Shown piece after piece: positions 49,411-63,739 of a stretch of DNA of 64,000 bases (its first letter is position 1; each line of letters starts with the position of its first letter). Position numbers and translations under genes: made by a program. Source of the DNA: Castellaniella denitrificans (GTDB lineage Bacteria; Pseudomonadota; Gammaproteobacteria; Burkholderiales; Burkholderiaceae_B). The notes beneath the pieces are model-generated. The model ran no database searches. It had not been told where the DNA came from and was given only the letters and a program-made list of their open reading frames with translations. The DNA lies in NCBI RefSeq assembly GCF_027214045.1, contig NZ_JAPWHE010000001.1, forward strand, positions 728,946 to 792,945. Direction: 5' to 3'.

Positions 49411-49423
49411 CGGGCCGGCCGCC

Positions 49424-49461
49424 GGGGGCCCCCCCCCCCCCCCCCGGGGGGGGGGGGGGGG
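49424..49461. other. G5-C17-G16 homopolymer palindrome; probable assembly junction
   Basis: Five G, seventeen C and sixteen G in a row, flanked by GGCCGCC and CGGCG. Nothing comparable occurs elsewhere in the window. It breaks metH on the left and an apparent gene tail on the right. Such tracts are typical of read-end artefacts joined by an assembler, though a real GC hairpin cannot be excluded. Confidence 0.8.
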
Positions 49462-49463
49462 CG

Positions 49464-49565: not shown

Positions 49566-49832
49566 ATGGCAATCAGCGGTCTTTCCGGCTCGTCCGAACT
49601 GAACTTCAACACCGTCAACAACACGGTCTACAGCGCCATCCGCACCCAGGAAAACAAGCTGCGCGACACACTCTCCAATGTGCAGACGGACGCCGACGGC
49701 AACATCTCGCAAACCGACCTGTTGATGCTGCAGCAGCAGACACAACAATGGACGATGCTGATCGAGTTGCAGAGCAACATCACCAAACAGATTTCCGATT
49801 CGCTCAAAGGCATCATCCAGAAGTCGTCCTGA
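49566..49832 (+). CDS. type III secretion system needle subunit (EscF/YscF/PrgI family)
   Basis: 88 residues, preceded by CCAGGAGCCCATC as RBS. The two-helix hairpin of needle proteins is seen: an N-terminal helix ([20 protein letters not shown]) with a central polar turn near DADGN, then a C-terminal helix ending [13 protein letters not shown]. The QxxLxxWT-type segment ([17 protein letters not shown]) and I-I-Q-K-S terminus are typical. About 100 copies form the hollow filament through which effectors pass. No apparatus genes are visible to its left because of the junction. Downstream is a convergent chaperone gene. Confidence 0.85.
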
Positions 49833-49890: not shown

Positions 49891-50325
49891 TCAGACCGAC
49901 TGCAGGAAGAACGCGGGATCCCGCGAGGTGGACGCTTCGGCTGCGCCCGCCCGGGTCCAGTCATCGGCCCGGTCCAGCAGGGACTCCACCACCGAGCAAA
50001 GCATGGAGGCGGTGCATTCGGACAGACTCAGGGCCACCTGCATGTGCGGCCGTCCATCCGGGGCCAGACACAGCACCGCGCCATGCCCCGCCTGCATGAA
50101 ATTGGCCCGGGCCATGCGGTCGGCCTGGCGGGCGTCGATTCCGTGATCGGCCAGCCGGCACGAGACCAGCACCTGTCCATGCGCGCTCACGTGCACCACT
50201 TGCACGATCTGGCGGCCGTCGAACACCAGTTGGCAGACCCCCTCGGCCGAGGGCGCCAGACCGGCGATGCCCAGCGTCCGACCCAGTTCGGCGATCAGAT
50301 GGGCATAGGAAGAGTCGACGGACAT
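49891..50325 (-). CDS. CesT-like type III secretion chaperone, second copy
   Basis: 144 residues from the ATG at 50325; 50343 would add six. The N-terminus (YAHLIAELGRTLGIAGL) is nearly the same as that of the neighbouring chaperone (YQALIAELGRTLGMADM), so the two are paralogues. The fold follows CesT/SycE class I chaperones: LVFDGRQIVQVVHVS, VLVSCRLADHG, ANFMQAGHGAVLCLAPDG, VALSLSECTASML. Such dimers bind the N-terminal region of effectors before secretion. A Rho-independent terminator stands between it and the first chaperone gene, so it may be expressed separately or by read-through. Confidence 0.8.
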   Translation of the reverse strand: MSVDSSYAHLIAELGRTLGIAGLAPSAEGVCQLVFDGRQIVQVVHVSAHGQVLVSCRLADHGIDARQADRMARANFMQAGHGAVLCLAPDGRPHMQVALSLSECTASMLCSVVESLLDRADDWTRAGAAEASTSRDPAFFLQSV

Positions 50326-50407
50326 GAACGATACGTCCCGCATGAGCGGGTTTCTTGGATTGCGGACTGTTAAAGGTACGCCAGACCGGCGCGATTGAAC
50401 AGATGGC

Positions 50408-50440
50408 AAAAACCAGAGGGCGCACAGGCGCCCCCTGGTT
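50408..50440 (-). terminator. Rho-independent terminator after the first chaperone gene
   Basis: On the minus strand CCAGGGGGCGC-CTGT-GCGCCCTCTGG is an 11-base stem with one mismatch, followed by TTTTT (complement of 50408-50412). It ends the effector-chaperone unit 19 bases after the chaperone stop. Confidence 0.85.
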
Positions 50441-50458
50441 CGGATCCCGGGAAACGGC

Positions 50459-50944
50459 TCAGGCCAGGGAATCGCCGGGCGGCATGCCGTCCAGGTCGCC
50501 CGGCGCCGCATCCGCCATGTCGCCGGTGCGCAAAGGGCCGCCGTCGTTGGCGTCCTCGATGCGCGTGCGCCAATGGGCGGCCACGCTGGCGAATCGCTCG
50601 ATCCAGACCGACAGCGATTCCACATCCAGGGCTGCGCACGCGCGCCGATCCGCCAGGAAGACACGTCCCGTGTCGAAATCGGCGCTGAAGGTCGCCCCAC
50701 GGGTGCCCTGCCAGAACATGTTGGCCGCCAGCAGCATGGCGTAGATCCCCTCCCGGCGATCGGGGTCGACCTCGGGCAGGCGGGCGAACAGGATGACTTC
50801 GTCATCCTCCGCCTCATGCTGGATGTGGATTTCGTGACCGTCGATCACGAGCCCCACGTAGCCGTCCTCGCCCGCAGCCATGTCGGCCATGCCCAGCGTC
50901 CGGCCCAGTTCGGCGATCAAGGCCTGGTATGAAGAAAGAGACAT
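50459..50944 (-). CDS. CesT-like type III secretion chaperone, first copy
   Basis: 161 residues from the ATG at 50944, preceded by AGGAG at good spacing; an upstream in-frame ATG at 50977 lacks an RBS. Class I chaperone pattern: YQALIAELGRTLGMA, VGLVIDGHEIHIQH, VILFARLPEVDPDRREGIYAMLLAANMFWQGTRGATFSAD segments, then RVFLADRRACAALDVESLSVWIERF. A Gly/Asp/Pro-rich tail of about 30 residues follows. It lies 42 bases after the effector gene on the same strand, mirroring sopB-sigE and ipgD-ipgE, so it is the likely cognate chaperone. Confidence 0.85.
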   Translation of the reverse strand: MSLSSYQALIAELGRTLGMADMAAGEDGYVGLVIDGHEIHIQHEAEDDEVILFARLPEVDPDRREGIYAMLLAANMFWQGTRGATFSADFDTGRVFLADRRACAALDVESLSVWIERFASVAAHWRTRIEDANDGGPLRTGDMADAAPGDLDGMPPGDSLA

Positions 50945-50986
50945 GCGGTACTCCTGTGATTCAGTGGATTGGGTCATGGATCGTGA

Positions 50987-53782
50987 TCAGGCTTTGGCGA
51001 ACTTGCCCAGCCCGCAAAGGAATTGGCGGACTTCGGGATCGGGCAACCGGTCCTTCAGGTGGCCGGCTTCCTTGCTGCCGGCCATCCCCGTATTCCAGCG
51101 CTGGTTTTCGAGCTGACCGGAACTGGCGCTGACCGTATAGTAGACGCCCTGGTCGTCGCCTTCCAGGCGCTCGTCGGGGTTCATCTCGCCCCCCAGATCG
51201 CGCAGGATCAGCTTGGACTTCAGTTCGACGTCGGTGACACCGCCGCGATCCTTGTCGCTCTTGCAGCCCTTGGACATCGTGCCCGCCAGATCGGTGGCAC
51301 CCACCAGGCCCAGACCCTGCTCGGCCAGCCCCTGCAGAACCAGGATCTCGCGCCCCATCTTGGCGGTATCGCCATTGCCCGTGCGGAAGGCTTCCTCGGT
51401 GAACATGCTGCGCACCAGGTCGGTCTGGCCACGCAGTTGAGCCATGAGGCCCTCCGCCTTGGCCAGTTGATCGGGCGGCGTGGTCGGGTCGTTGACCACG
51501 GTCTCGAGGCGGTCATAGACCTCGCCCACGAAGCCGCCCGGCCGCACGCCCCGGGCGCCGAAGGTGCCTTCGCCCAGGTCGCCCACCAGCTTGATCATGT
51601 TGGTGGTGTTGTGCTCGTGGACATTGTTCCAGACACGCATGAGCATTTCGCGTCCGCCTGTGGAAATGGCGTTGATGCCGAAAGAGAACGTGATGGCGTC
51701 CACATCCACCGTCCGCGCCTCGCCCTGCCGCTCCGGATGGTCCGGATCGAACACCCGCAGGGTCTGTCCCTGCCCCGAATTGGCCTCGAAGGCCCGGAAC
51801 TGGTTCTGCGTGTAGGTGCGTTCCTGGTAATCCTGGATGCCCAGATTGTCGCGCAGCGAATCGGGCGAGATCAGGTTGACGCTGACGTGCACCAGCCGGG
51901 GCGGCGGGGCATCCTGCGGCCGGTCCGGATCGGTCAGCACGCCGCGCAGGCGGTCGTTGCTGGTCAGGGCGACCTCGAGCACTTCGCGCGCGCCGCGTTC
52001 ATTGGAGGTCTGACGATCGCCGCCGTCCTCCACGCCCCACATGTCCAGCACGCCATGGCCCACCACCGTGGTCATCACCTGACCCTCGGGATCGCGCAGA
52101 CGGCTGACCTTGAGATTGCGGGCATGATCCTCGCTGTCCTTGACGCCAGCGGACACCCCGCCGATCCGGCCCTGACCCAGATCGACACCCAATTCATGGC
52201 CGATGAACTGGGCCGGCACGACCTCGCTTTTGTAGGTGCGCATCACACCATCGCGCATCACCGGCATGTCGCGCATCACGGGCTGCCAGGTTTCCAGCCC
52301 CGCCAACGCCTGACGTTCGCTGCGCGTCATGCTGGATTTGGAGAACAACGCGTCGAGCGTGCCACGGGGAATGCCGATGTCCTCGAGGCGGGTGCGCAAG
52401 TCCTGCATCGTGTCGCGCTTGCCCTGGACGACGGGGTGCGTGTCCTTGTTCGATTTGCTGGGCGCCTCGATGGGTTGCAGGGTATTCACATCGACACTGT
52501 CCCGGTAGGCCTGGCTGCGCGCTTCGCACAGTTCCGTCCACTGGCCGCGGACCTGCGCCAAGGCGCCCAACTGCTCTTCGGTGAGCGCGGGATCGCCCCC
52601 CTGGGCATCCTCGCTCAGGCGATCCAGCAGGTGGTTGCCCGCCTGGGCCCAGATCAGGTCGCTGTGCTTGACGGAGCGGTTGGTCAGGGGATCGGTCAGG
52701 CGCATTTCATCGACATAGTCGCTCTTGGCATCGAGCAGACCGATCTGTCGGTCCATATCGTGAACCAGCGCCTGACCGACGGACAGCTTTTCATTGCGGA
52801 ACCGGATCTGGCCCTCGAGCTCGCCCTTGCGTGTCTGCAACGTTTTCGCCTCGTTGGAGCCCTCGCGCGCAGCCTGAAGATCCCGGTCGACCTCGTTCAG
52901 TTCTTCCTTCAGCGCGCCCAGCTCATTCCGAAGCGTCTGGATGCCATCGCGCAAACCGCCCTGGCAGACTTCCAGGTCGTCGCGCTGATGACCCAAGGCC
53001 TCGGACAGGCCCCGCAGGCTGTCCTGGTTCCAGGCCTGCCGTCCCAGCAATTCCGTGGTCCGGTCGATCTGGTCCAGCGCGCCCGTCACCTGGGGGTCGT
53101 GTCTCGGGCCGCCGCCATAAATCTGGCGCAGTTCCTGGCTCAGGCGGCCGGGATCGAGCCCGACCCGCGACAGCGGACTGCCCTGGGGCGCATTGCGGAC
53201 CAGGTCCGTGAGCGCGGGGAAGCGCTCCTCGCATTGCCGGGCGCGCTGTTCACGCACCTCGGTTTCGGCCCGGGTCCGCAGGGACTGGACGTCCACCCGG
53301 CTCAGGGGGGTATTGCCATAGCGGGAGTCGTTGCGCACTTCCCGGATGACCGCCGCCCGCACATCGCGCAGTTCGGGGCCTTCCAGGCCTTTCAGCGTCT
53401 CGCCCAGCAAGGATTCATTGTGCCGCACCACCTGCAGCCGGTATTCCTGGGCCTTGCCCAGGATCTTGCCAACCTGGTGGTTGGTCAAAGGGCGGTCATT
53501 GGTCGCCCAGCCCTGTGGCAGTCCGCAGGCCCTCAGGGCCCGCTGCGCCCCCGCCTGCCCTTCGGTCTTCTCGAGCAGGCCGAGGAATGCCTGCTTGACC
53601 TGGACGCGTTCCTGGACACGCGCCTGCTGTTCCTGGGGCGACCGGAACCAGCCCTGGATGCGGCTCGCCAGGCGCGACAGGCCGCTTTGGCGCACGCCCT
53701 CCTGCCCTTGGGGATTCTGGCGGATTTCCCGCTCGAAGAATCCACCGCTCAATTGCCTGAAATTGCTGAGACCAATTGCCAT
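50987..53782 (-). CDS. type III secretion effector, SopB/IpgD-like inositol phosphate phosphatase
   Basis: 931 residues from the ATG at 53782 (RBS GGAGAGACAG); an upstream ATG at 53797 is less likely. No signal peptide or transmembrane segment. A helical N-terminal half contains a coiled coil (about 280-345). Near residue 685 FSFGINAIS recalls the FNFGVNE segment of SopB. Near residue 839 CKSDKDRG fits the CX5R phosphatase loop and resembles SopB CKSGKDRT; Cys and Arg are kept, Gly becomes Asp and Thr becomes Gly. About 92 residues follow the cysteine, close to the roughly 100 in SopB. Members dephosphorylate host phosphoinositides. The chain is much longer than SopB (561), so extra domains are likely. 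Followed by two chaperone genes. Confidence 0.75.
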   Translation of the reverse strand: MAIGLSNFRQLSGGFFEREIRQNPQGQEGVRQSGLSRLASRIQGWFRSPQEQQARVQERVQVKQAFLGLLEKTEGQAGAQRALRACGLPQGWATNDRPLTNHQVGKILGKAQEYRLQVVRHNESLLGETLKGLEGPELRDVRAAVIREVRNDSRYGNTPLSRVDVQSLRTRAETEVREQRARQCEERFPALTDLVRNAPQGSPLSRVGLDPGRLSQELRQIYGGGPRHDPQVTGALDQIDRTTELLGRQAWNQDSLRGLSEALGHQRDDLEVCQGGLRDGIQTLRNELGALKEELNEVDRDLQAAREGSNEAKTLQTRKGELEGQIRFRNEKLSVGQALVHDMDRQIGLLDAKSDYVDEMRLTDPLTNRSVKHSDLIWAQAGNHLLDRLSEDAQGGDPALTEEQLGALAQVRGQWTELCEARSQAYRDSVDVNTLQPIEAPSKSNKDTHPVVQGKRDTMQDLRTRLEDIGIPRGTLDALFSKSSMTRSERQALAGLETWQPVMRDMPVMRDGVMRTYKSEVVPAQFIGHELGVDLGQGRIGGVSAGVKDSEDHARNLKVSRLRDPEGQVMTTVVGHGVLDMWGVEDGGDRQTSNERGAREVLEVALTSNDRLRGVLTDPDRPQDAPPPRLVHVSVNLISPDSLRDNLGIQDYQERTYTQNQFRAFEANSGQGQTLRVFDPDHPERQGEARTVDVDAITFSFGINAISTGGREMLMRVWNNVHEHNTTNMIKLVGDLGEGTFGARGVRPGGFVGEVYDRLETVVNDPTTPPDQLAKAEGLMAQLRGQTDLVRSMFTEEAFRTGNGDTAKMGREILVLQGLAEQGLGLVGATDLAGTMSKGCKSDKDRGGVTDVELKSKLILRDLGGEMNPDERLEGDDQGVYYTVSASSGQLENQRWNTGMAGSKEAGHLKDRLPDPEVRQFLCGLGKFAKA

Positions 53783-53823
53783 TCTGTCTCTCCACATCCT
53801 GATAGAAACTTATCACAGGCAAT

Positions 53824-53850: not shown

Positions 53851-54041
53851 CTCTCTCGACACGATCGACCCTTCGATGAATACGGCCATTGGCTTGAACA
53901 CGGTCCATGTGTATAGTTTCTGGTGGCGGCGCTATTGCACGCCGGCCGACTACCGATCGACGCCCCCCGACATTCATCCCCGTGGGCGGGCACTCATGCG
54001 GCGGACGGTTTCCACTCTGCCAGGCCTTCAACGCCACCACC

Positions 54042-54566
54042 ATGCACCTGAATACCCGTTTCCTCGCCCCTTTCCTGATGGCTACTCTGCTGGGCCTCGC
54101 GGGATGCCAGAATCTCCCTTCGGCATCCCGGCCGGCATCGTCCGATACGCGCACCACCACCGGCCCGGACACCAATGCCAGCCGCATCGTGCAACCGGTC
54201 GCCATCTATCTGGCGCAATCGGCGCCCGGCGATCAACTGGTCGCCGTTCCGGTGCCCGACGGCATGGTCTACCTCCATGCCCGCCCCATGCTCGCCCGCG
54301 AGGACCTGACCGACGCGGCAGCCCTCTCCGACCGCCAGGGCGGACACTTCGTCGGCCTGCGGCTGACGCCCGCAGGCGCCGAAAGGCTGGGCGCCGTCAG
54401 CCGCCAGAACGTCGGCAATCTGCTGGCCTTGGTCATCGGCCGCGAACTGGTGGCCGCGCCCCGTATATCGGGCGCGCTGGATCGCGGTATCCTGGCGTTC
54501 GAAGTCCCGTCGGCCGAGGTGGCTGCCGACCTGGCCGCGCGCATCCGGGGCGATGCGCCTCAGTGA
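54042..54566 (+). CDS. lipoprotein resembling the SecD/SecDF P1 head domain
   Basis: 174 residues from the ATG at 54042. A signal peptide ends in lipobox LAGC near residue 19. After a Ser/Thr-rich linker, residues about 50-170 resemble the periplasmic P1 head of SecD: LTDAAALSDRQGGHFVGLRLTPAGAERLGAVSRQNVGNLLALVIGRELVAAPRI follows the SecD order (ADLTDA, VxLxLxxxGAxxFxxLTxxNVGxxLAIVLDGxVxSAPxI). Only this domain is present, anchored as a lipoprotein. Its role is unknown; position 24 bases before the kinase gene suggests a link to secretion or its control. Confidence 0.72.
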   Translation: MHLNTRFLAPFLMATLLGLAGCQNLPSASRPASSDTRTTTGPDTNASRIVQPVAIYLAQSAPGDQLVAVPVPDGMVYLHARPMLAREDLTDAAALSDRQGGHFVGLRLTPAGAERLGAVSRQNVGNLLALVIGRELVAAPRISGALDRGILAFEVPSAEVAADLAARIRGDAPQ

Positions 54567-54590: not shown

Positions 54591-55016
54591 ATGACCGACA
54601 GTCACGACACGCTCTATCTGCCCGCCGACCTGGGCGCGGTACCGCTTGCCCTGCAATGGATCGAGGGCCTTGCCGAGCGGCTCCAATGGCCTTCCCGCGT
54701 CACTTTCGGGCTGACGCTATCGCTGGACGAAGCACTGACCAACGTGCTGTCCTATGCCTTCGATCCACCCGGGCCGGAAACGCCGGCCATTGCCGTTTCG
54801 TGCCAGGCGGACGGCGCACGCATCACCATCGAACTGCGCGACAATGGCCGCCCTTATGATCCGACGGCGGGCGACCCACCGCCCCTGGTCGCCTGCCTGG
54901 ACGAGGCCTACATCGGCGGACAGGGCGTACGGCTGATGCGGCATTACCTGGAAACGCTCTCGTATCGGCGCCAGGACGGCTGGAACTGCCTGACCATGGT
55001 CATGACGGCGGCCTGA
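54591..55016 (+). CDS. RsbW/BtrW-like anti-sigma serine kinase
   Basis: 141 residues of the GHKL HATPase_c_2 type. The N box is LDEALTNVLSYAF near 46-58, G1 is RDNGRPYDP near 84-92, and G2 is GGQGVRLMRHYLE near 107-119. The rest is compact with no sensor or transmembrane part. Such kinases bind a sigma factor and phosphorylate a STAS-domain antagonist. In Bordetella, BtrW with BtrU and BtrV controls type III secretion through the ECF factor BtrS. Here a SpoIIE phosphatase lies convergently downstream; no STAS protein or sigma factor is within the window. Confidence 0.87.
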   Translation: MTDSHDTLYLPADLGAVPLALQWIEGLAERLQWPSRVTFGLTLSLDEALTNVLSYAFDPPGPETPAIAVSCQADGARITIELRDNGRPYDPTAGDPPPLVACLDEAYIGGQGVRLMRHYLETLSYRRQDGWNCLTMVMTAA

Positions 55017-55041
55017 GACCCCGCCCGCGACGGGTGGGGTC
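55017..55041. terminator. hairpin between convergent kinase and phosphatase genes
   Basis: GACCCCGCCCG pairs with CGGGTGGGGTC (one G-T wobble) around a CGA loop, starting right after the kinase stop at 55016. Likely a bidirectional terminator; no T-run. Confidence 0.55.
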
Positions 55042-55063
55042 TCAGGCCGTCACCCGCCGCCGC

Positions 55064-57892
55064 TCAGCCCCGATAACGCAGGCACAGGCTGGTGACGTCG
55101 TCGGTCGGATCGGTGCCGTCCTCGAACGTGCGCACGTCGGCGATCACCGCATCGGTCAAGACATCCAGCGGCACATTCGCAGGCTGCGCACGCAGCAGGC
55201 CGGCCAGCCGTTCTTCGCCGAATACCTGCCCAGCCGGGTTGAAGGCTTCGGTAATGCCATCGGTATACAGGTACAGCAGGTCGCCCGGTCGCAGATACAG
55301 CGTCTTCTGGGTGTAAGGCATGTCCTCCTCGATCCCCACGGCGATGCCATGCGTCGGCGCCAAGGCCGACAATTCGCCCTGGGCATCGATCAGCCAGGGC
55401 ATATGGTGCCCCGCATTGACATAATCCAGCCGACCATCGCGCAGATCCAGCGTGGCATAGAACAAAGTCACGAACAGCATCTGCTCGTTCTCGGCGGCCA
55501 GCAGCGCATTGACACGCTGGACGCAGTCGGCCGGCCGACGCACGAAGCGCGCCGTGGATTTCAGCAAGGTGCGCGAAATGGCCATGAACAGGGCGGCGGG
55601 GATGCCCTTGCCCGAAACATCGGCGATGACGAACCCCAGATGATGCTCATCGAGCATGTAGAAATCGTAGAAATCTCCTCCCACGTCGCGAGCCGGGAAG
55701 ATCCGGCAGTCGATCTCCATGCGCGGGTCGTCCGGCATGGTGCGCGGCAGGATGCTGAGCTGCACGGCACTGGCGATCTGCAGTTCCTGCTGCAGCCCGG
55801 CCAGCTTGGTCTTGGTGATCAGGGCGTCGCGCAGTTCAATCACCATGTCGGACAACCGCTGGTATTGCTCGACCAGCCGACGGCGCAGGTCCCCCATGAC
55901 TTCGGCCAGGCGCCGCAGGCCATCGCCATCATCGTCCGAGTGGTGCTGGCGGTCGATCAGCGCCTGGACTTCCTGGCGGCTGATCGAGTCCATCGACTCG
56001 GCCAGCGCACGGAGCTCGCCCGCCATGACGGTTTCATGCAGTCGCCGGACGCGCGCCTGCTGAGACTGATCGCGGACGAGCTGCAGGGTCTTGTGCCGGA
56101 AGGCGGCGATGCTGCGTCCCAGGCGCTCGATCTCGTCCTGATGACCCACGCCGGAACGCCGGGCCGCGCCGGCCTGCGGACCGCTGAGCTCGTCCAGCGT
56201 CTCGAGCGAGTCCTGCAACGGCCGGAAGCTGCGCCAGATGATCAGGTGGATCAGCAACAGCCCCATAATGGCCAGGCCGGCGGCAAGCAACAGCGCCAGC
56301 CGGCCCAAGGTCAGGCTGGGCTTCATCAGGGTCGTGACGTCCTTGAGCGTCACGAGCAAGCCGCCAGCGCTTCCGGAGATGCTGATGACGGGCGTCGCCG
56401 TCAAAAGCAGGATTTTGTCCCGGTCCTCCAGGGTCCGGTATTGCGCATCCTGCACGGTCAGCGTCAGGTCGAGACGCGACCACTGACCGGGACTGGTACT
56501 GGCGACAAGGTGCCCGCGGGAATTCAGGAAGTGAACGCTATATCTTTCGTCATCCCGGATCGGATCGATCTGCTGCGCCGCCCGTTCCAGGGTGCGTCCA
56601 CCGATCAACCCCCAGGTCGCACCCTGAAGCCGGACAGGCTGAGCGGCCATCAGCATGGTCAGGTTGCCGTCCAGATTGCGCAATCCCCTGGCTTTCTTTC
56701 CGGACAGCACATTGTCCAGCGTTCCGGCATCCAGCGGGTCGGCCTCGGTGTCAGCGCCCTGCAGGACATACACCTCGCGATTGGGATCGACGAGCGCCAG
56801 GTAGTCCAGCGAGGGTTCCGGTCCGGGCAGCGCATTCGAGGGGCCGCGCGAAACATCCAGCCGGGGGGTCAGGGCATGCAACCGTCCGGAGATGTCCTTC
56901 GTCTGGGATACCAGGAACTGCGCCCAAAGGGCGCTCTGGTCTTCCAGGCCGAGATTGGCGGCCTGCTGGCGCAGCAAGTGTTCCCGCAGGGCCTGCAGGC
57001 CTGACAGCGCCCCGATCACCAAGGCGAAGCCCAAAGCGATGATGAGCGGCAGGCGCAGGCGCAGCGACAGACGGCGTGAGCGGTCCGGCGGAACGATCTG
57101 CACGCTCGGCGCGGGCCCCGGGGGCAGGATGTCCAGTGCTTCGAGCCGAGGCCGCACCCGGCCATCGAAATCGACGGACAGCAAGGACTCGACCTGATGC
57201 GTCAAGTCGGCTCTTTGCTGCGCGACGTCGGTCGCCATCGCCTGCAAACTGTCCCAGGCCTGGCCCAGGATGTCCTGGGGATCGGGACGCGGCCCCGGGA
57301 CCGGCGGCACAAGATCATCGGGCGCCTGCCCGAGCAAGGCCAACAAGGCGCGCCGATGTTGCTGGATACGGGCGCCGTAGAGCGCGGTGAACAGACCGCC
57401 CAGCAACGCCAGCGGCAGGATCAGCAACAACATGCCGGTCAGCAGGGTCGCGTGCGAACCGCTCAGGACGGGAGGCGCCGCCTCGACTTCGAGGGTGCCG
57501 ATCCGCTGCGAACCGGTCTGCAGTTCCGTACTCACGGACGCCGATATCTCGGCGCCGGGACGTTGCGCGAACCCCAGGACCCTGCCATCGACATCGGTCA
57601 GCATGATGCGGTTCAGTTGGGGGACATGCTCCAGCGTGCCCTTCAAGCTGCGGCTGATGGCCGGAATCTCATTGAGAGGGACGCCGAGCTGGCTCGCCCG
57701 AATGAATTGCCGTCCCAGCGCGCGACCGACCGAAGAGGCCAGCTCGCGGGATTGCTCCTGGACGGCGGACGCCACGGTCCCCTGAAGACGTGCGAGCAGG
57801 ATGCCGCTGGTCAGACCGGCCGCGACCAGAACAATCAGAAAGCCGCTGGCGGCATCGCGCAGCCGGGCACGGATACCGTGATCAATCGACAT
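55064..57892 (-). CDS. SpoIIE/RsbU-type protein phosphatase with two extracytoplasmic sensors (BtrU-like)
   Basis: 942 residues. TM1 (about 17-35), a first periplasmic sensor (about 40-140; LGVPL at 69-73), TM2 (about 148-172), a cytoplasmic linker, TM3 (about 280-300). Then a second, larger sensor (about 305-525), TM4 (about 535-560), HAMP (to about 620), a helical linker, and the phosphatase domain (about 715-940). Metal and catalytic residues appear in ARDVGGDFYDF, FVIADVSGKGIPAALFM, LYTDGITEAF and DPTDDVTSLCL. It should dephosphorylate a STAS antagonist, opposing the kinase encoded convergently. Two stacked sensors are unusual for RsbU/BtrU types. Its first 11 bases overlap the preceding gene. 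Confidence 0.92.
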   Translation of the reverse strand: MSIDHGIRARLRDAASGFLIVLVAAGLTSGILLARLQGTVASAVQEQSRELASSVGRALGRQFIRASQLGVPLNEIPAISRSLKGTLEHVPQLNRIMLTDVDGRVLGFAQRPGAEISASVSTELQTGSQRIGTLEVEAAPPVLSGSHATLLTGMLLLILPLALLGGLFTALYGARIQQHRRALLALLGQAPDDLVPPVPGPRPDPQDILGQAWDSLQAMATDVAQQRADLTHQVESLLSVDFDGRVRPRLEALDILPPGPAPSVQIVPPDRSRRLSLRLRLPLIIALGFALVIGALSGLQALREHLLRQQAANLGLEDQSALWAQFLVSQTKDISGRLHALTPRLDVSRGPSNALPGPEPSLDYLALVDPNREVYVLQGADTEADPLDAGTLDNVLSGKKARGLRNLDGNLTMLMAAQPVRLQGATWGLIGGRTLERAAQQIDPIRDDERYSVHFLNSRGHLVASTSPGQWSRLDLTLTVQDAQYRTLEDRDKILLLTATPVISISGSAGGLLVTLKDVTTLMKPSLTLGRLALLLAAGLAIMGLLLIHLIIWRSFRPLQDSLETLDELSGPQAGAARRSGVGHQDEIERLGRSIAAFRHKTLQLVRDQSQQARVRRLHETVMAGELRALAESMDSISRQEVQALIDRQHHSDDDGDGLRRLAEVMGDLRRRLVEQYQRLSDMVIELRDALITKTKLAGLQQELQIASAVQLSILPRTMPDDPRMEIDCRIFPARDVGGDFYDFYMLDEHHLGFVIADVSGKGIPAALFMAISRTLLKSTARFVRRPADCVQRVNALLAAENEQMLFVTLFYATLDLRDGRLDYVNAGHHMPWLIDAQGELSALAPTHGIAVGIEEDMPYTQKTLYLRPGDLLYLYTDGITEAFNPAGQVFGEERLAGLLRAQPANVPLDVLTDAVIADVRTFEDGTDPTDDVTSLCLRYRG

Positions 57893-58628
57893 GGTCCAGC
57901 TCCTTCAACTGCTGCCGCTGCCGGTCCAGGGCCTGCAGGCTGGCCTGGTGGCGTTCTCTGGCACGCCGGGCGGCGGCGACCAGCGGGTCCCGATTTCCGC
58001 CGGGCGCGTCCTCGCCCCGCAGAATCCTGCCGGCCCACAGGAACGGCCGCAGACGCCGGCGAGCCAGCCAGACCGCTCCCAGGCCCGCGACCAGAGAGGC
58101 TATCACTGCCAACGCCAGCGTGGGCAGCCCCCGTGCAAGCCAGGCCTGAAGGCTGTAGGCCCGCGCCGTATGCGGCGCAGCCAGAACCAGACCGCCCGCC
58201 GTCCGCCCCAGTTCGTCCTGCAGGGCAATGCCGCAGCTACGCACAGTGTCGTCGTCGATGCACCAGACGCCTTCGGCGCCGGCCGCCCGCGCCCAGTCGG
58301 TCGGAATGGGGCGGCCCTGCCTTCCCTGATCCGTGCTGTAGAGCACCTGACCGGACGCGCCATAGACACTGATGTCACGAATGTCCGGCATGCCGGATTT
58401 TTCGCGCTCGATCAGCTGTTGCAGGCTCGAACTCTGTTCCAGTGTCAAACCCAGGGTCAGATTGGCCTCGATGACGCTGCGCAGGTTTCCAAGCACGTAT
58501 GTTTCGTGTGACTGGCGCGTCTGGTCGATGGCCTGCTGTTCGATGCGCACGGTCAGCCATGTGGCGCCGAATACAGCGGTCAGCGCGCAGCAGACCAGGG
58601 CCAGGATCAGGATCAGGGGCGTTCTCAT
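57882..58628 (-). CDS. membrane sensor protein without output domain
   Basis: 248 residues. TM1 (about 4-24), a periplasmic domain (about 30-155), TM2 (about 168-188), then a short cytoplasmic helical tail (DPLVAAARRARERHQASLQALDRQRQQLKELD, about 210-246, likely coiled coil). The periplasmic part has LTLGLTLEQ near 57-65 and DISVYGASGQVLYSTD near 85-100, the same pattern seen in the phosphatase and MFS proteins of this operon. It starts in the alanine racemase stop (ATGA) and overlaps the phosphatase by 11 bases. I do not recognise a named family; it may modulate the phosphatase directly. Confidence 0.8.
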   Translation of the reverse strand: MRTPLILILALVCCALTAVFGATWLTVRIEQQAIDQTRQSHETYVLGNLRSVIEANLTLGLTLEQSSSLQQLIEREKSGMPDIRDISVYGASGQVLYSTDQGRQGRPIPTDWARAAGAEGVWCIDDDTVRSCGIALQDELGRTAGGLVLAAPHTARAYSLQAWLARGLPTLALAVIASLVAGLGAVWLARRRLRPFLWAGRILRGEDAPGGNRDPLVAAARRARERHQASLQALDRQRQQLKELDHVD

Positions 58629-59752
58629 GGCAGACTTTCCGACAAGCGGGATGCGAGGGGCTGTTCAGGATGGAGAGCATGGTAGCGCCTGCCGCACCCG
58701 GCTGCGGTCGCGCTCAGCAAGGCGTTGGCGGGCAGGCCGGCGATGTCGGCCAGGGTTTCGAGGCGCTGTTGCTCGCCGAAGACCTCGGCCCATTGCCCGG
58801 GGGCGGTCAGCCGGGGCGGCAGCCCGCTCACGTCCACGCTGGTCAGGCCCATGGAAATGCCCCCCACGATGGGCGCGCGATGCGGGCCGAAATACACGGC
58901 GCCCCGGTTCATCAGGGCATAGGGCAAGCCGTGGGCATAACCGATACCCAAGGTCGCGATGCGCATGGGAGCCGGACAACGGAATTGCTGATCGTAGCCG
59001 ATCTCGGCCCCGGCGGGCAGGTCGGCGACCCGCAGAACCGGCGCATGCACGCTGGCCACGGGTTTCAGCGGCAAGGTCCGCGAGGGGGTGGTGTCCACAC
59101 CATACAAGGCACTGCCCACGCGCGCCATGTCGAGATGGTGCCCGGGGCAGGCAAAGACGCTGGCCGAAATGGCCAGGCTGCGGGATGCCGCAGGCAACGG
59201 CGCGATCAACGCCAGAAAACGGTCATGTGGATTCAGCCGGTCCGGACTCTCGGGCCTGCTGAAACTGGACGGCTGGGTGATCCAGGCCCGCACGCGCAGC
59301 GGCGACAGGTCCTGCGCCGCCAGGCGCGCCACCGCTTCGGGCCTCAGGCCGAGGCGGCCCAGGCCGGTATCCAGCGCGACGGCGACCGTCAAGGCCCCCG
59401 CGCGACGCGCTTGTGCGATTTCGTCCAGGTCGTTGAGCACGGGAATCAGTCGCTGGATATGACAATCCCGCGCCGAAGCGCCGCGCAGGCCGTTCAGGAT
59501 GAAGACCTCTGCGGCGGGTGCCAGCGCGCGCACGCGGCAGGCCTCGTCATAGCCAAGCGCCCAGTATTGCAGACAGCCCTGAGCCGACAAGGTGTTGACG
59601 ACGGGCTCCAGCCCCAGTCCGTAGGCATTGCATTTGACCACGGCGCCCAGGTCGTTTCCCGTGTAGCGGCCGCGAACGGTCCGCCAATTGCCTGCCAGGC
59701 GAGCCAGGTCGATGTCCATGACGGGGGAATCGGCATGCGCGGTGGCGTTCAT
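58625..59752 (-). CDS. alr: alanine racemase
   Basis: 375 residues from the ATG at 59752. Fold type III PLP enzyme: the cofactor lysine is Lys40 in AVVKCNAYGLG (usual form AVVKANAYGHG, so Ala and His are replaced), ALDTGLGRLGL, SRVGSALYG-like MARVGSALYGV, and the catalytic tyrosine in EIGYDQQF near 253. The C-terminal beta domain (VDVSGLP, VFGEQ) is complete. It interconverts L- and D-alanine. Its place inside a signalling operon, with ATGA overlaps to the GNAT gene and the sensor gene, is unusual. It might supply or sense D-amino acids, or act on a related substrate. Whether this is the only Alr of the cell is unknown. Confidence 0.9.
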   Translation of the reverse strand: MNATAHADSPVMDIDLARLAGNWRTVRGRYTGNDLGAVVKCNAYGLGLEPVVNTLSAQGCLQYWALGYDEACRVRALAPAAEVFILNGLRGASARDCHIQRLIPVLNDLDEIAQARRAGALTVAVALDTGLGRLGLRPEAVARLAAQDLSPLRVRAWITQPSSFSRPESPDRLNPHDRFLALIAPLPAASRSLAISASVFACPGHHLDMARVGSALYGVDTTPSRTLPLKPVASVHAPVLRVADLPAGAEIGYDQQFRCPAPMRIATLGIGYAHGLPYALMNRGAVYFGPHRAPIVGGISMGLTSVDVSGLPPRLTAPGQWAEVFGEQQRLETLADIAGLPANALLSATAAGCGRRYHALHPEQPLASRLSESLP

Positions 59753-60423
59753 GTCTCGACGACCTCCGGAGGCACGAGGGCGCAGACGGCCGGCGCCACG
59801 AACCGTCCACGCCATCCATGGGACAACAACCGGTCCTGCTCGTCCAGCGGCAATCCATCGAGCGGACGTGCGGCCTCCTCATCCGTGGGCGCGAGGGGCG
59901 TGGCCGCCGTCCGTGCCGGGCGAGCCAGGATGTAGCGCAAAGAATTCTGATAGACCCGACGCAACAGCCGGATCTCGAAGCCCTCTCGCAACAGGCTGCG
60001 CCAACTGGCCGGATTCGACGGCGCGGCCGTAGCGTAAAGGCAGGCGTCCGGATCGGCCAGTTCGACGCGGCGGCGAATCAGCTCGCATTGCAGACGCCGG
60101 CCCCGGTAGGCCTCGGCGACCGAGGAGCCGGCCAGTTTCTGGATCCGCGCATCCGCTGGCCAGCCCAGCCAGAGATCCGGGCGGGTGCCCGGGTCGGGGC
60201 CATCCTGCAGCACGCCGTAGGCCACCAGATCCCCGGCCGGCGCACGGGCGCCGATGATCCGCCCCGCCCCGTCCAGCAGCGCGGCGAAGAACTCGGGGTG
60301 CTCGGGCTTGACCTGGTCGGAGCCCATGCCGCGGATCGCGCGCGCATGCAGGTCGACGATCCGGTCGAGATCCGCCGGGCCGAGCATGTCCCAATGCAAG
60401 TCGACAGGCACGCGGCGGGTCAT
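59749..60423 (-). CDS. GNAT-family acetyltransferase-like protein
   Basis: 224 residues. The region about 60-150 follows the GNAT order: GRIIGARAPAGDLVAYGVL, then a V/A-x-x-x-x-R-G-R-x-L pattern in SVAEAYRGRRLQCELIRRRVEL (acetyl-CoA loop) and YATAAPSNPASWRSLLREGFEI (the late N-x-x-x-x-x-x-x-x-x-G-F segment). The last 60 residues are untypical. Substrate unknown. It overlaps the racemase downstream and the substrate-binding protein upstream by four bases each, so it belongs to the six-gene operon; an amino acid or cell-wall-derived substrate would fit. Confidence 0.75.
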   Translation of the reverse strand: MTRRVPVDLHWDMLGPADLDRIVDLHARAIRGMGSDQVKPEHPEFFAALLDGAGRIIGARAPAGDLVAYGVLQDGPDPGTRPDLWLGWPADARIQKLAGSSVAEAYRGRRLQCELIRRRVELADPDACLYATAAPSNPASWRSLLREGFEIRLLRRVYQNSLRYILARPARTAATPLAPTDEEAARPLDGLPLDEQDRLLSHGWRGRFVAPAVCALVPPEVVET

Positions 60424-61481
60424 CCGACATGCCTCGTCGACGCCGGAGCCTGGGTGATCACGTCGGCGTAGTTCAGCATTTCGATGGGTGGATAGAAGCC
60501 TCCCAGTGCCTTGGCCGTATGCAGATTGACCAGCAAGGCGAAGCGCTTCAGGGTTTCGATGGGAATCCGGTCGGCGGGCACGTCTTCATAAAGGATGGCC
60601 TCTGCCTTCACGGCGGCCAGCCGGCCGACGGAACGATAGCGGCTGACCAGACCGGTCAGTGCGGAGTATTCCCGGACGGCGAGTTCGGTCACGCCGAACG
60701 TCGGCAGTCGCTGCTCGATGCTGGCGGGAATCACCTGGTCATAGACGGAGCCCAGGAAAGTATCGGGCACCAGATAGAACCATTGCGCGCCCTCTTCACG
60801 CAACTCGGCGACCAGCCGGCCAAGGCCATCCGCGGAGGGACGGCCCGCCGCATCGAGGCTGAAATGGCGGTGGATGGCCGTCCGCTGCGTGGCGGCGCAC
60901 AAGGCATCCATTTCGGAGGCGATCGCCCTGGAATTGGGCTCCGTGGTCGAGTACAGCAGACCGACCCGGTTGAATTCCCTGTAGGCGGCCATGGCCTTGA
61001 CCTGGGTTTCAGTGGGGACCACGTGCACGGCCCCTGTGACGTCTCGCCCCTGCTGCGTGAGGGAAGGCACGATGCCGGCGGCCACCGGCGCGCTCACCAG
61101 GGCGAAGACGACGGGGATGGAGCCCACCTTGCCGGACGGATCGGGATCGCGCCAGGTGCCCGTCACCCCCAGGGTCACGGGCGTGCCCCAGGTGTAGATC
61201 AGGTCGGGGGCCAGCGCGGGGATCTCGTCCAGAATGGCGGGCAGCCGACGGATGTCCTGCCCGACGTCCCGGTGGACGATATCCGGTTCACGGCCCTGCG
61301 ACCGCAGGTATTCCAGAAAGCCGTCCTCGACTTCCGTGCGTCCACGATACGTGATCATCAGGATACGGCGCCGGGCCGTCGCGCGCGCCACCAGGGGGGC
61401 GGCCCCCCCCAGAAGCCCGGTGGACAGGGCGGCGCGCAACAGGCGCCGGCGGACAGGAGACGAAGGAGCGTGAGCGTTCAT
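60420..61481 (-). CDS. ABC-type substrate-binding protein (ABC_sub_bind family)
   Basis: 353 residues. A twin-arginine-like N-terminus (RRRLLRAALSTGLLGGA, about 11-30) suggests export. The mature part shows ILMITYRGRTEVEDGF, DLIYTWGTPVTLGVTG, IPVVFALVSAPVAAGIV, VTGAVHVVPTETQVKAM and VGLLYSTTEPNSR, the periplasmic-binding-like fold related to TrpX and other PF04392 proteins. No permease or ATPase gene accompanies it, so it may deliver its ligand to the membrane sensors or the MFS protein instead. Start at 61481 overlaps the MFS stop (ATGA). Confidence 0.87.
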   Translation of the reverse strand: MNAHAPSSPVRRRLLRAALSTGLLGGAAPLVARATARRRILMITYRGRTEVEDGFLEYLRSQGREPDIVHRDVGQDIRRLPAILDEIPALAPDLIYTWGTPVTLGVTGTWRDPDPSGKVGSIPVVFALVSAPVAAGIVPSLTQQGRDVTGAVHVVPTETQVKAMAAYREFNRVGLLYSTTEPNSRAIASEMDALCAATQRTAIHRHFSLDAAGRPSADGLGRLVAELREEGAQWFYLVPDTFLGSVYDQVIPASIEQRLPTFGVTELAVREYSALTGLVSRYRSVGRLAAVKAEAILYEDVPADRIPIETLKRFALLVNLHTAKALGGFYPPIEMLNYADVITQAPASTRHVG

Positions 61482-63739
61482 GAGAGACTGCCGGAAGCAT
61501 TGGAAACGGAGCGCCATTGCCCATAACCGTAGAGCAGGGCGCCACCGGTGGTCAACAAACCGAATAGGGCCAGCGTGGCCGCCGGACCGGCCAGCCCCAG
61601 CGCCGCGCCGGCCAGTGCCGGACCGGCGGCCGATCCGCCGCGCTCGACCAGGCGGAACAGCCCGAGCACTTGCGCGGAATGGCGGCCCTGCCCATGATGA
61701 GCATAGGTGGCCATCATGGACGACTGGGGGGTGATCGACAAAGCCTGGCCCAGTCCCAGAAAGAACAGGAAAACCATGATGGCGCCCAGGCCGGGCCAGA
61801 ACAGGACGGGCACCACGGCCAGGCCGGCGATGAGCCCGCCCAGGATGATCTTGCGGGGCCGGAAATCGTGTTCCGGCGTCTCGCCCCAATGGGCGAAGAG
61901 CGGGACGCACAGGACCATCATCAGCGGATAAATCATCTGCACGCGACCGATGCTGGACAACGAATGGCCTTCGTTGGACAGAATGAGCGGCACCAGAAAG
62001 AAACACAAGGCCGTCAGGATCAGCTTGGCCGGCACCGCGCACCCCAGCAACAGGGAACGCATGCCGGGAATGCGCCAGGCCTCCCGAAGCGCATCGGATG
62101 TCGGCCAGGCGGTGCGCGGTCGATCCGACGGCCGGGCCGCGGACATCATGGCCCGCGCCAGGCACAGCGCGACCAGGCACAGGCCGGCGGCGGCAAGGAA
62201 CGCCGTGCCGCCGCCGAAGTGTTCGGCCAGGAAACCGCCAAGAGGCGGAGCACACAAGGCGGCGGTCAGGATGGCGCGGATGAAGACGGCAAGCCCCGCC
62301 GTGCGGGCCGCAGGATCCGCCTGGTCGACGATATACCCCTGTGCCGACGTGAAGACCAGGGTGAAACCGAGGGCGCTGAGCGCCCGGGCCAGCAACAGGC
62401 CAGAATAAGAATCGGCAAAGGCGCACAGGCCATAGCCGATACCGGCCACGGCGGCGCCCAGCATCAATCCGCGGCGTCTGCCCAGGTGTTCGGACCAGAG
62501 CGCCATGGGGATCTGCCCCAGCGCGACGATCGCCATGAAGACGACGATGGGCAAGCTGACGAGCAGCGGCGCATGCGCCACACCGGCCGGCAGCAGATTC
62601 GCGGTCAGACTGGGAAGAAAAGGGCGGTTCAGTTCTTCGGCCATCATGAACACGAACAGCACGCCCCGGATCTGCTCGGCCGGGAGTGGGCCCGTGTCGC
62701 GCATGCCGGACGCATCGGAGGATTTCCGGAAGACGCTTGTCTGCGTCAAAAGCGACAGCAGTTCGAAACCGACCAGCAAGGCGACCAGGCCCAGGAAGGC
62801 CGTATCCAGCAGCAGGCCGTGGATCTGGGCGGCCGCATGGCGATTGTCGGGCACCACTTCCAGCGCGGCCTGCGCGGGCCCCCGGGCCGGTATCGGCAAC
62901 AGCAGGCCGCCCGCCGCCGGAGTGGCCTCGACACCGGACGGCGGAACCGCGATGAGCTTGATCTGTTCCAGCTCCGGATAATGCCGCCGAAGCGACGCCA
63001 AATATTCGGGCACCCCCTGCATCTGATCGAGCGGAATCCCCAAGGCCAGCGCCTTGTCGATCAATGATCGGGCGCCGTTGCCGATCGATTCGACCTTGGT
63101 TTCGATCAGGGGGTTCAAGGTACGGTCGATGATGCGCAGCGCCTGATGGTCGATCAGGAACAGGCCGCCCCCCAGAATGAGCGCCAGTGCCAGGGGCAGG
63201 CGCAGCCTGCCGCGCCCGTCGCGCCCGGCGCGCAGCGCGAGTGCGGCCAGCAGGCCCAGAAAGGCCGCGCCCGCCACGATGGGCAAGGCATGCCGGCGCA
63301 TGTCCTGGCGGATTTCCGCCGAGGGCGCCTCCAGGGCGCGGCGATCGTAGCGCAGCAGGATCCGCCCGGAGGGCAACCCGAGATCGTCGTGGAGGGTCTG
63401 CCCGAGCGTGCCGGGTGGCGCCGGATCCGGCAAGAGGCCGTCGCCATAGAGCCGCCGTCCCTGCGCATCCTGGACGGCCATGCCGAGGATGTCGGCATCC
63501 AGGGCTCGTTCGCGCCCCAGGGCGGCGCCCAGGGTCGCTTCCTGGCTTTCCAGCCCCACCCCCAAGGAGGCGGCATGCGTGGCGCCTTCGGCGACGCGGT
63601 CCAATGCGATGGCAAAACGGGATTCGAGGATGCCGCGATAAGCCTTGAGCAGCGATCCCTCCGTCATCCATGCGCCTGCGGCCAGGCATGCCGCAATCAA
63701 CAGGCTGAACAGAAATGCTGGAATCAGCGGAAATCGCAT
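61478..63739 (-). CDS. MFS transporter fused to an N-terminal double extracytoplasmic sensor
   Basis: 753 residues from the ATG at 63739; 63784 is an alternative. TM1 (about 5-24), sensor copy 1 (about 28-150; LGVGL at 59-63, AVQDAQGRRLY), TM2 and TM3 (about 152-170 and 181-198), sensor copy 2 (about 200-300; LGIPL at 233-237), TM4 (about 312-332). A 12-helix MFS domain follows from about 350 (MAEELNRPFLPSL, ALWSEHLGRRRGLMLGA loop 2-3 motif, and LGFTLVFTSAQGYI). First gene of the operon ending in the SpoIIE phosphatase. A transporter joined to a sensor is uncommon and suggests transport-coupled signalling. Substrate unknown. Confidence 0.85.
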   Translation of the reverse strand: MRFPLIPAFLFSLLIAACLAAGAWMTEGSLLKAYRGILESRFAIALDRVAEGATHAASLGVGLESQEATLGAALGRERALDADILGMAVQDAQGRRLYGDGLLPDPAPPGTLGQTLHDDLGLPSGRILLRYDRRALEAPSAEIRQDMRRHALPIVAGAAFLGLLAALALRAGRDGRGRLRLPLALALILGGGLFLIDHQALRIIDRTLNPLIETKVESIGNGARSLIDKALALGIPLDQMQGVPEYLASLRRHYPELEQIKLIAVPPSGVEATPAAGGLLLPIPARGPAQAALEVVPDNRHAAAQIHGLLLDTAFLGLVALLVGFELLSLLTQTSVFRKSSDASGMRDTGPLPAEQIRGVLFVFMMAEELNRPFLPSLTANLLPAGVAHAPLLVSLPIVVFMAIVALGQIPMALWSEHLGRRRGLMLGAAVAGIGYGLCAFADSYSGLLLARALSALGFTLVFTSAQGYIVDQADPAARTAGLAVFIRAILTAALCAPPLGGFLAEHFGGGTAFLAAAGLCLVALCLARAMMSAARPSDRPRTAWPTSDALREAWRIPGMRSLLLGCAVPAKLILTALCFFLVPLILSNEGHSLSSIGRVQMIYPLMMVLCVPLFAHWGETPEHDFRPRKIILGGLIAGLAVVPVLFWPGLGAIMVFLFFLGLGQALSITPQSSMMATYAHHGQGRHSAQVLGLFRLVERGGSAAGPALAGAALGLAGPAATLALFGLLTTGGALLYGYGQWRSVSNASGSLS

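Follow-up and report, generated by a model that had tools for sequence, protein, structure and literature searches.

A sensor-rich SpoIIE phosphatase operon of Castellaniella denitrificans appears to be a second, reordered version of the btr-type partner switch

The six-gene operon described here occupies positions 55064..63739, on the minus strand, of a 64,000-nucleotide stretch of the Castellaniella denitrificans genome (contig NZ_JAPWHE010000001.1, positions 728,946 to 792,945; this whole stretch is referred to below as the window). It encodes a sensor-fused protein of the major facilitator superfamily (MFS), a periplasmic binding protein (SBP), a GNAT-like protein, a paralogue of alanine racemase (Alr), a small membrane sensor (sens) and a SpoIIE-type phosphatase. 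On sequence comparison this set appears to be a new variant of the btr-type switch, a second and reordered version of it, and we consider it rather probable that the operon forms the half of such a partner switch that comprises signal input and phosphatase, is tied to a type III secretion system (T3SS) island and works as a receptor complex. The gene set, its order and conservation, the sharing of a domain between its products, the Alr residues, the lineage of kinase and antagonist, and the T3SS context were all computed. The original prediction, made from the DNA alone, held that no described system has these parts, which proved to be wrong: the btr locus of Bordetella pertussis, as tabulated in the accessible part of PMC7498569, contains BtrV (STAS), BtrW (kinase), alr, BtrO (MFS), BtrU (phosphatase), BtrN (an "ABC transporter"), BtrM, BtrA and BtrS. 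The same part of that paper gives BtrO, BtrN and alr of Bordetella as being of unknown function, and likewise the mechanism of the Btr switch. A literature search found no paper that combines four of the five subjects SpoIIE, alanine racemase, major facilitator, SBP and partner switching; on BtrO and BtrN in Bordetella only PMC7498569 surfaced, most subscription papers lying outside the search.

The window sequence bears out the six overlapping minus-strand genes, each of which is open and without internal stops; from the MFS end to the SpoIIE end, successive genes overlap by 4, 4, 4, 4 and 11 bases. They are as follows:

61478..63739, minus strand: MFS protein, BtrO-like, with two N-terminal sCache-like periplasmic domains (Pfam MFS_1 1.6e-37, residues 361-707)
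60420..61481, minus strand: SBP, BtrN-like and TrpX-like (PF04392 ABC_sub_bind 7.8e-17)
59749..60423, minus strand: GNAT-like protein (weak acetyltransferase matches in the PDB)
58625..59752, minus strand: Alr paralogue (Pfam Ala_racemase N 1.4e-33, C 3.1e-24; PDB 3kw3 2.4e-44)
57882..58628, minus strand: sens, predicted sCache-like membrane sensor (AlphaFold2 model and Foldseek; no recognised output domain)
55064..57892, minus strand: SpoIIE-type phosphatase, BtrU-like, with two extracytoplasmic regions (Pfam SpoIIE 5e-49)

The MFS_1 domain, preceded in the family scan by about 350 extra N-terminal residues, assigns the first product to the major facilitators, with transport putative. The SBP scores 1.2e-17 against the NCBIfam TrpX model, far under that model's cut-off, and matches PDB entries 3lkv (4.2e-11), 6hni (5.6e-9) and 3lft (4.6e-8); its Tat-like signal was judged by eye only. 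The phosphatase scores 5e-14 (51.8 bits) against NCBIfam SiaA, for which the cut-off is 700, and sens gave only sub-threshold matches in Pfam (dCache_1 0.1). The Pfam scan gave no family for the GNAT-like protein, which was seen only in the window's version of the locus, with weaker likenesses elsewhere; its profile, run across the class, matched the window genome alone (1/369 genomes).

The gene for the putative partner kinase converges on that for the phosphatase:

54591..55016, plus strand: RsbW/BtrW-type stand-alone kinase (Pfam HATPase_c_2 2.3e-17; tree)

The window genome contains a single SpoIIE match. Among its ten HATPase_c_2 matches the window kinase ranks first; the remaining nine fall within frames of 375-956 residues. 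There are two STAS matches, one in a stand-alone frame of 121 residues and the other in a frame of 549 residues that we take to be a sulfate-type transporter. Since the genome encodes one SpoIIE protein and a single stand-alone protein each of the STAS and HATPase_c_2 types, these three are likely to be partners. The 121-residue STAS gene lies on another contig (C22), adjoining a BtrA homologue, a BtrS-like gene of the sigma-70 family (Pfam Sigma70_r2 1.9e-13, r4_2 1.4e-15) and a T3SS operon that includes genes for a secretin and for FHIPEP. The antagonist is not local, contrary to what had been supposed: the operon and the STAS/BtrA/sigma genes stand at opposite ends of the T3SS island. In Castellaniella sp. 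UBA6218 (G571) a single contig carries in succession the STAS, BtrA and sigma genes, the apparatus, the needle region, the chaperones, the effector, the kinase and the six genes. The predicted link to type III secretion is supported by this contig, by the setting of the sole stand-alone STAS gene, and by the lineage of the kinase.

That lineage is one of two that appear to meet in the locus. In the kinase tree the window kinase falls in a 12-row group with siblings from its own family (support 89), and its lineage by the tree is that of the T3SS-bearing siblings; holding it with the kinase of L089, a locus from another family, was rejected in the approximately unbiased (AU) test (p 0.00066). 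L106, a btr-type sibling from the same family, has the published btr layout but for a separate BtrM, which was not called, and identity to it is 67% for the STAS protein, 53% for the kinase, 58% for BtrA, 75% for the sigma factor and 71% for the secretin. Identity of the SBP to that of L106 is 26%; in the SBP tree the window protein goes with L089, with L194 and with the sens-MFS-SBP sets of other families, while all 34 Bordetella-type rows lie on one side of a branch with support 100. The MFS protein, compared by pairwise identity only and without a tree, is 39% identical to that of L089 (794 columns) and 29% to that of L106 (545 columns). For the phosphatase the values are 39% to L089 over 699 columns, the second sensor part included, and 41% to L106 over 242 columns, essentially the catalytic part. 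All but three rumen rows were dropped from the kinase tree and all of them from the AU tests; L196 and L198 were dropped in both AU tests, and L193, L110 and L091 also in that for SpoIIE. A kinase and STAS protein of Bordetella type together with an SBP, Alr and MFS protein of another lineage can be read as an input half that has been exchanged. Of the features by which a btr-type switch is recognised, the window system has a phosphatase with an extracytoplasmic sensor, a stand-alone BtrW-type kinase of the btr lineage, and a BtrV-type STAS gene with BtrA and sigma genes beside a T3SS operon; the BtrU sensor, BtrN, alr and BtrO counterparts, by the same comparisons, appear not to be of the btr lineage.

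The products of the operon are also linked by a common domain. Their periplasmic parts were aligned by profile comparison, with 22 rows for sens, the two sides sharing no sequence other than rows of one genome; the rows of separate phosphatase-sensor genes (L089, L104, L105) were kept out of the sens alignment. Sens matched MFS copies 1 and 2 at 97.9% each, region 1 of the phosphatase (three Castellaniella rows) matched MFS copy 2 at 97.6%, and the two MFS copies matched one another at 75.1%; column-shuffled controls gave 0.4% or less. Region 2 of the phosphatase matched none of the domains compared (6.4% or less). The two copies in the Bordetella-type MFS proteins (BtrO-type, 22 rows), for which the cuts contain some membrane-spanning residues, matched sens at 97.4% and 91.2% and window-type MFS copy 2 at 97.2% and 97.8%; the dCache_2 domain of the Bordetella-type phosphatase gave no match to the shared domain (0.2% or less). 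In an AlphaFold2 model from a 3-row alignment (mean predicted local distance difference test score (pLDDT) 76, predicted template modelling score 0.52), sens has a fold that is sCache/PDC-like as modelled, and Foldseek paired it with WalK (7.6e-5), KinD (8.6e-5), CitA (1.6e-4), DcuS (1.1e-3) and the periplasmic domain of Chlamydia RsbU (1.2e-3). The profile matches argue for one sCache-like domain in four copies spread over three proteins, once in sens, twice in the MFS protein and once in the phosphatase, the leg between sens and the phosphatase being the weaker.

The residues of the Alr paralogue were compared using numbers (K129, R136 and D313) that follow the Geobacillus enzyme and were assigned by motif. 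The lysine that binds pyridoxal phosphate (PLP), the PLP-contact arginine and the catalytic tyrosine are kept in 5/5 window-type and 32/32 Bordetella-type rows, as expected of an alanine racemase. K129, R136 and D313 are all conserved in canonical Alr sequences (21/21; one from the window genome, 20 retrieved from others). All five window-type rows keep R136, with G at D313 and A or H at K129, the window's own copy having G and A at these positions. The 32 Bordetella-type rows keep D313, have R at K129 and have lost R136, which is replaced by H in 19, L in 6, S in 2, M in 2, and N, Y or F in one each. In the Alr tree, built without an outgroup, the five window-type rows lie on one side of a branch with support 100 and the 32 Bordetella-type rows on another. 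With K129 and D313 lost, the locus Alr is unlikely to be an ordinary alanine racemase; that two lineages keep an altered PLP protein next to the phosphatase hints at a different substrate or at a part in sensing. That it is the housekeeping enzyme was considered and rejected: two or more Alr genes occur in 24/28 genomes examined, and the locus copy is an extra paralogue with altered substrate-site residues. A second copy is no proof by itself, because G448 and G496 each have a pair of Alr genes but lack a BtrW relative.

The gene order is kept in relatives. The closest named records by phosphatase identity, Castellaniella sp. UBA6218 (91%) and C. defragrans DSM 12141 (76%), have the identical six-gene order, which is found again, at about 40% identity, in L089 and in L219/L194, the latter from another genus of the window's family; conservation at such a distance shows that the order is not due to chance. 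L089 and L219 encode the first sensor part of the phosphatase in a gene of its own, and L194 has two genes in place of the single MFS gene. Among 78 distant SpoIIE loci (L005-L082, the best 80 of 358 minus two from Castellaniella, many on short contigs) there were no MFS, SBP, Alr, sens or GNAT matches at E 1e-4, and STAS or RsbW matches were frequent. A relative of the MFS protein (E 1e-10) was found in 23/399 genomes of the order, the window genome included. Of 26 stretches around these relatives, taken from the 22 other genomes and counted at E 1e-3, 25 have an SBP relative and 22 a sens match (that in L101 being the MFS frame itself), and five (L088, L089, L104, L105 and L106) have SpoIIE and RsbW. 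In L092 the sens-MFS-SBP trio diverges from a Ser/Thr kinase gene (dCache_1 and HAMP), near an FHA-cyclase gene. Since the trio mostly occurs without SpoIIE and RsbW, a sensing role with more than one kind of output is supported, in keeping with the original suggestion that the set senses something.

Within the family, 61/250 genomes contain a relative of the window kinase (E 1e-10). Forty stretches of up to 20 kb were taken from 39 of the 61, picked for spread over genera (two came from G463, and of the two matches in G627 the weaker was used), and with L088 (G352) and L106 (G138) made 42; L003 and L004, which duplicate L159 and L088, entered neither trees nor counts. At E 1e-4 the kinase was found in 42, SpoIIE in 38, SBP in 37, Alr in 35, MFS in 34 and STAS in 33, with sigma matches in 8, two of them weak (L162, L170). 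Kinase, Alr, MFS, SpoIIE and SBP genes occur together in 33 of the 42 loci, 31 in the Bordetella-type order and two (UBA6218 and C. defragrans) in that of the window; one or more of the five is missing from the stretch in L166, L170, L171, L172, L184, L193, L194, L196 and L198, the SpoIIE gene of L194 lying just outside (in L219). The Bordetella-type SBP, searched at E 1e-40, was found in 2/399 genomes of the order, both in the window's family. The T3SS secretin TIGR02516 scored over its cut-off in 32/62 genomes (the 61 and G240), and weaker matches, of the kind that other secretins give, were present in all 62. Of the 31 complete Bordetella-type loci, matched by hand, 18 belong to genomes in which no secretin exceeds the cut-off (among them G413, which is only 75% complete) and 13 to genomes with one. 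Secretion therefore looks like an output acquired by recruitment, the module being more widespread than its use for this purpose. The original prediction is incomplete here, in that the Bordetella-type set is common without a T3SS. In the window's genus G000, G352 and G571 have the window's version and a secretin, G474 has the Bordetella-type version and no secretin, and at least six other sampled genomes have no kinase relative; in these four genomes the window's version goes with the T3SS. In G502, which has the window's version, no secretin scored over the cut-off.

Two scanned relatives of Bordetella type without a T3SS secretin, L187 and L174, carry a xanthine/uracil-type permease gene between their STAS and kinase genes (L187:8101-9864, 1.5e-37; L174:8020-9774, 5e-45). 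In L187 a GCS2-type gene (L187:17147-18610, Pfam 8.6e-6) adjoins the SBP gene and is perhaps the BtrM listed in the accessible table of PMC7498569.

We propose that the SBP would capture a small, perhaps amino-acid-like ligand in the periplasm and would present it to a membrane complex of MFS protein, sens and phosphatase, in which the MFS part may be a receptor or a transporter-receptor. The complex would set the activity of the cytoplasmic SpoIIE domain, which would strip phosphate from the BtrV-type STAS protein; the RsbW/BtrW-type kinase would restore it, and the balance of phosphorylation, with the BtrA-type and BtrS-type proteins, would set secretion. Within the cell, the Alr and GNAT-like proteins would produce the ligand, alter it or sense it. 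We infer in this scheme the formation of the complex, the class of ligand and the direction of every signal step. A bolder form of it, which we put forward tentatively and think doubtful as a whole, is that the operon encodes a new kind of receptor: SBP, two-sCache MFS protein, free sCache subunit and same-domain phosphatase would join in one complex; the altered, PLP-bound Alr would be a cytoplasmic gauge of amino acids; the input would be exchangeable as a block between switches; and in relatives of Bordetella the same kind of input (BtrO, BtrN, alr) would await a function.

It might be argued that the operon is metabolic, the MFS protein moving an amino acid or wall fragment that Alr and the GNAT-like protein convert, with the phosphatase gene merely co-transcribed. 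This reading is favoured by the transporter-like gene and the two enzyme-like genes that share the operon, and the permease genes of L187 and L174 and the GCS2-type gene beside the L187 SBP gene agree with it; yet in two distinct gene arrangements the set remains associated with SpoIIE and RsbW, the active site is changed in the locus copies of Alr, and sens, with no recognised enzymatic domain, shares its domain with the MFS protein, which makes a metabolic operon unlikely. The other alternative is a general stress or nutrient switch whose link to the T3SS in the genus is one of neighbourhood only, secretion not being its target. The complete Bordetella-type loci in secretin-less genomes speak for it, as does G502. 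It is nevertheless improbable in our view, given that the three genomes of the window's genus with the window's version all have the secretin and the one with the Bordetella-type version has none, that the STAS gene has homologues of BtrA and sigma and the secretin operon as its neighbours, and that the genome has only one stand-alone STAS protein and kinase.

Several results weigh against the reading of the operon as the input half of a btr-type switch working as a receptor complex. The lineage of the SpoIIE catalytic part is not decided (AU p 0.458 with the Bordetella-type rows, 0.585 with L089 and L219). MFS and Alr are not indispensable, because they are missing from L171 and L196, which have T3SS genes nearby, and from L193. 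The sensor domains do not match in every pairing: sens and phosphatase region 1 reach only 56.3% (3-row alignment), and phosphatase region 1 and MFS copy 1 give 3.7%, which is no match; the structure model of the MFS protein (pLDDT 35) was unusable. The GNAT name, which is plausible, comes from a motif seen by eye and from a 4-row profile that, within a limit of E 1, matched five PDB chains, each annotated as an acetyltransferase, though weakly (E 0.11-0.86). In one alignment of three species no conserved promoter was seen upstream of the MFS gene. Finally, a simple partner-switch scheme may not hold, because the Bordetella proteins behave non-canonically: according to the accessible part of PMC7498569, BtrU, BtrW and BtrV are each required for secretion, with no negative regulator among them, and according to that of PMC8256260, phosphorylated BtrV binds BtrW better, the reverse of canonical switches.

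Beyond the kinase gene, the window continues into the T3SS island:

55010..55048: 13-bp inverted repeat, terminator-like, between the convergent ends of the kinase and phosphatase genes (by eye)
54042..54566, plus strand: small lipoprotein-like gene, predicted SecD-head-like domain (SecDF_P1_head 1.8e-11 on the longer frame 53907-54566)
50987..53797, minus strand: IpgD-like effector candidate (Pfam IpgD 9.7e-17)
50459..50977, minus strand: CesT-type secretion chaperone (Pfam 3.8e-22)
49891..50343, minus strand: second CesT-type chaperone (Pfam 5e-14 on the longer frame 49891-50817)
49566..49832, plus strand: T3SS needle gene of 88 codons (T3SS_needle_F 1.1e-12; homologous stretch in UBA6218)

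The SecD-head-like, lipoprotein-like gene adjoins the kinase gene in the window, in UBA6218 and in C. defragrans (L003, L004). The T3SS island of UBA6218 has four tandem related genes of about 201-223 codons among the apparatus genes (L221:91-2852); the window genome has three such genes (L224). In C. defragrans the sigma and secretin genes are separated by a gene of 815 codons that has a CesT-like neighbour of its own (L222:2295-4742); the window genome has none at this place. At 49401-49462 the window contains filler of 98% GC, with the first part of metH (Pfam S-methyl_trans 6.6e-97, Pterin_bind 1.2e-59) on the left and the needle gene on the right. The final portion of metH (PF02965) was located at the terminus of contig C11, again behind filler, and contig C22 ends in GC-rich filler where UBA6218 runs on into needle and chaperone genes. 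The window is therefore probably misjoined at about 49.4 kb, which is likelier than a rearrangement; a genuine split of the island over two places in the genome was rejected on the filler joins, the metH halves and the continuity in UBA6218.

The kinds of gene represented by BtrO, BtrN and alr form a conserved block that is found also without secretion genes; the shared domain and the altered Alr residues are testable points for Bordetella genes of unknown function, and C. defragrans is a relative outside Bordetella in which the block could be tested. Compared with the Bordetella btr locus, the window system has in common the SpoIIE phosphatase, RsbW-type kinase, STAS protein, MFS protein, PF04392 SBP and Alr, as well as BtrA, an extracytoplasmic function (ECF) sigma factor and the T3SS, and in the Bordetella-type siblings scanned the MFS protein is likewise sensor-fused. 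It differs in that the gene order is another one, with the genes at two ends of an island; sens and GNAT-like genes are added; the sensor of the phosphatase is dCache_2 in L106 (7.8e-20), whereas the first region in the window is sCache-like; and the Alr belongs to another paralogue clade than the Bordetella-type Alr.

The RsbU-RsbW-RsbV/SpoIIE switches and SiaABC of Pseudomonas also consist of a membrane PP2C phosphatase, a kinase and a STAS antagonist, to which the window operon adds the MFS-sensor, SBP, Alr and GNAT-like genes; no diguanylate cyclase gene was noticed beside it. Transporter-like receptors of the UhpBC type use an MFS homologue as a receptor, as proposed for the window protein; in the window system, however, the output is a phosphatase rather than a histidine kinase, and the MFS protein carries sCache-like domains of its own and has an SBP gene adjoining.

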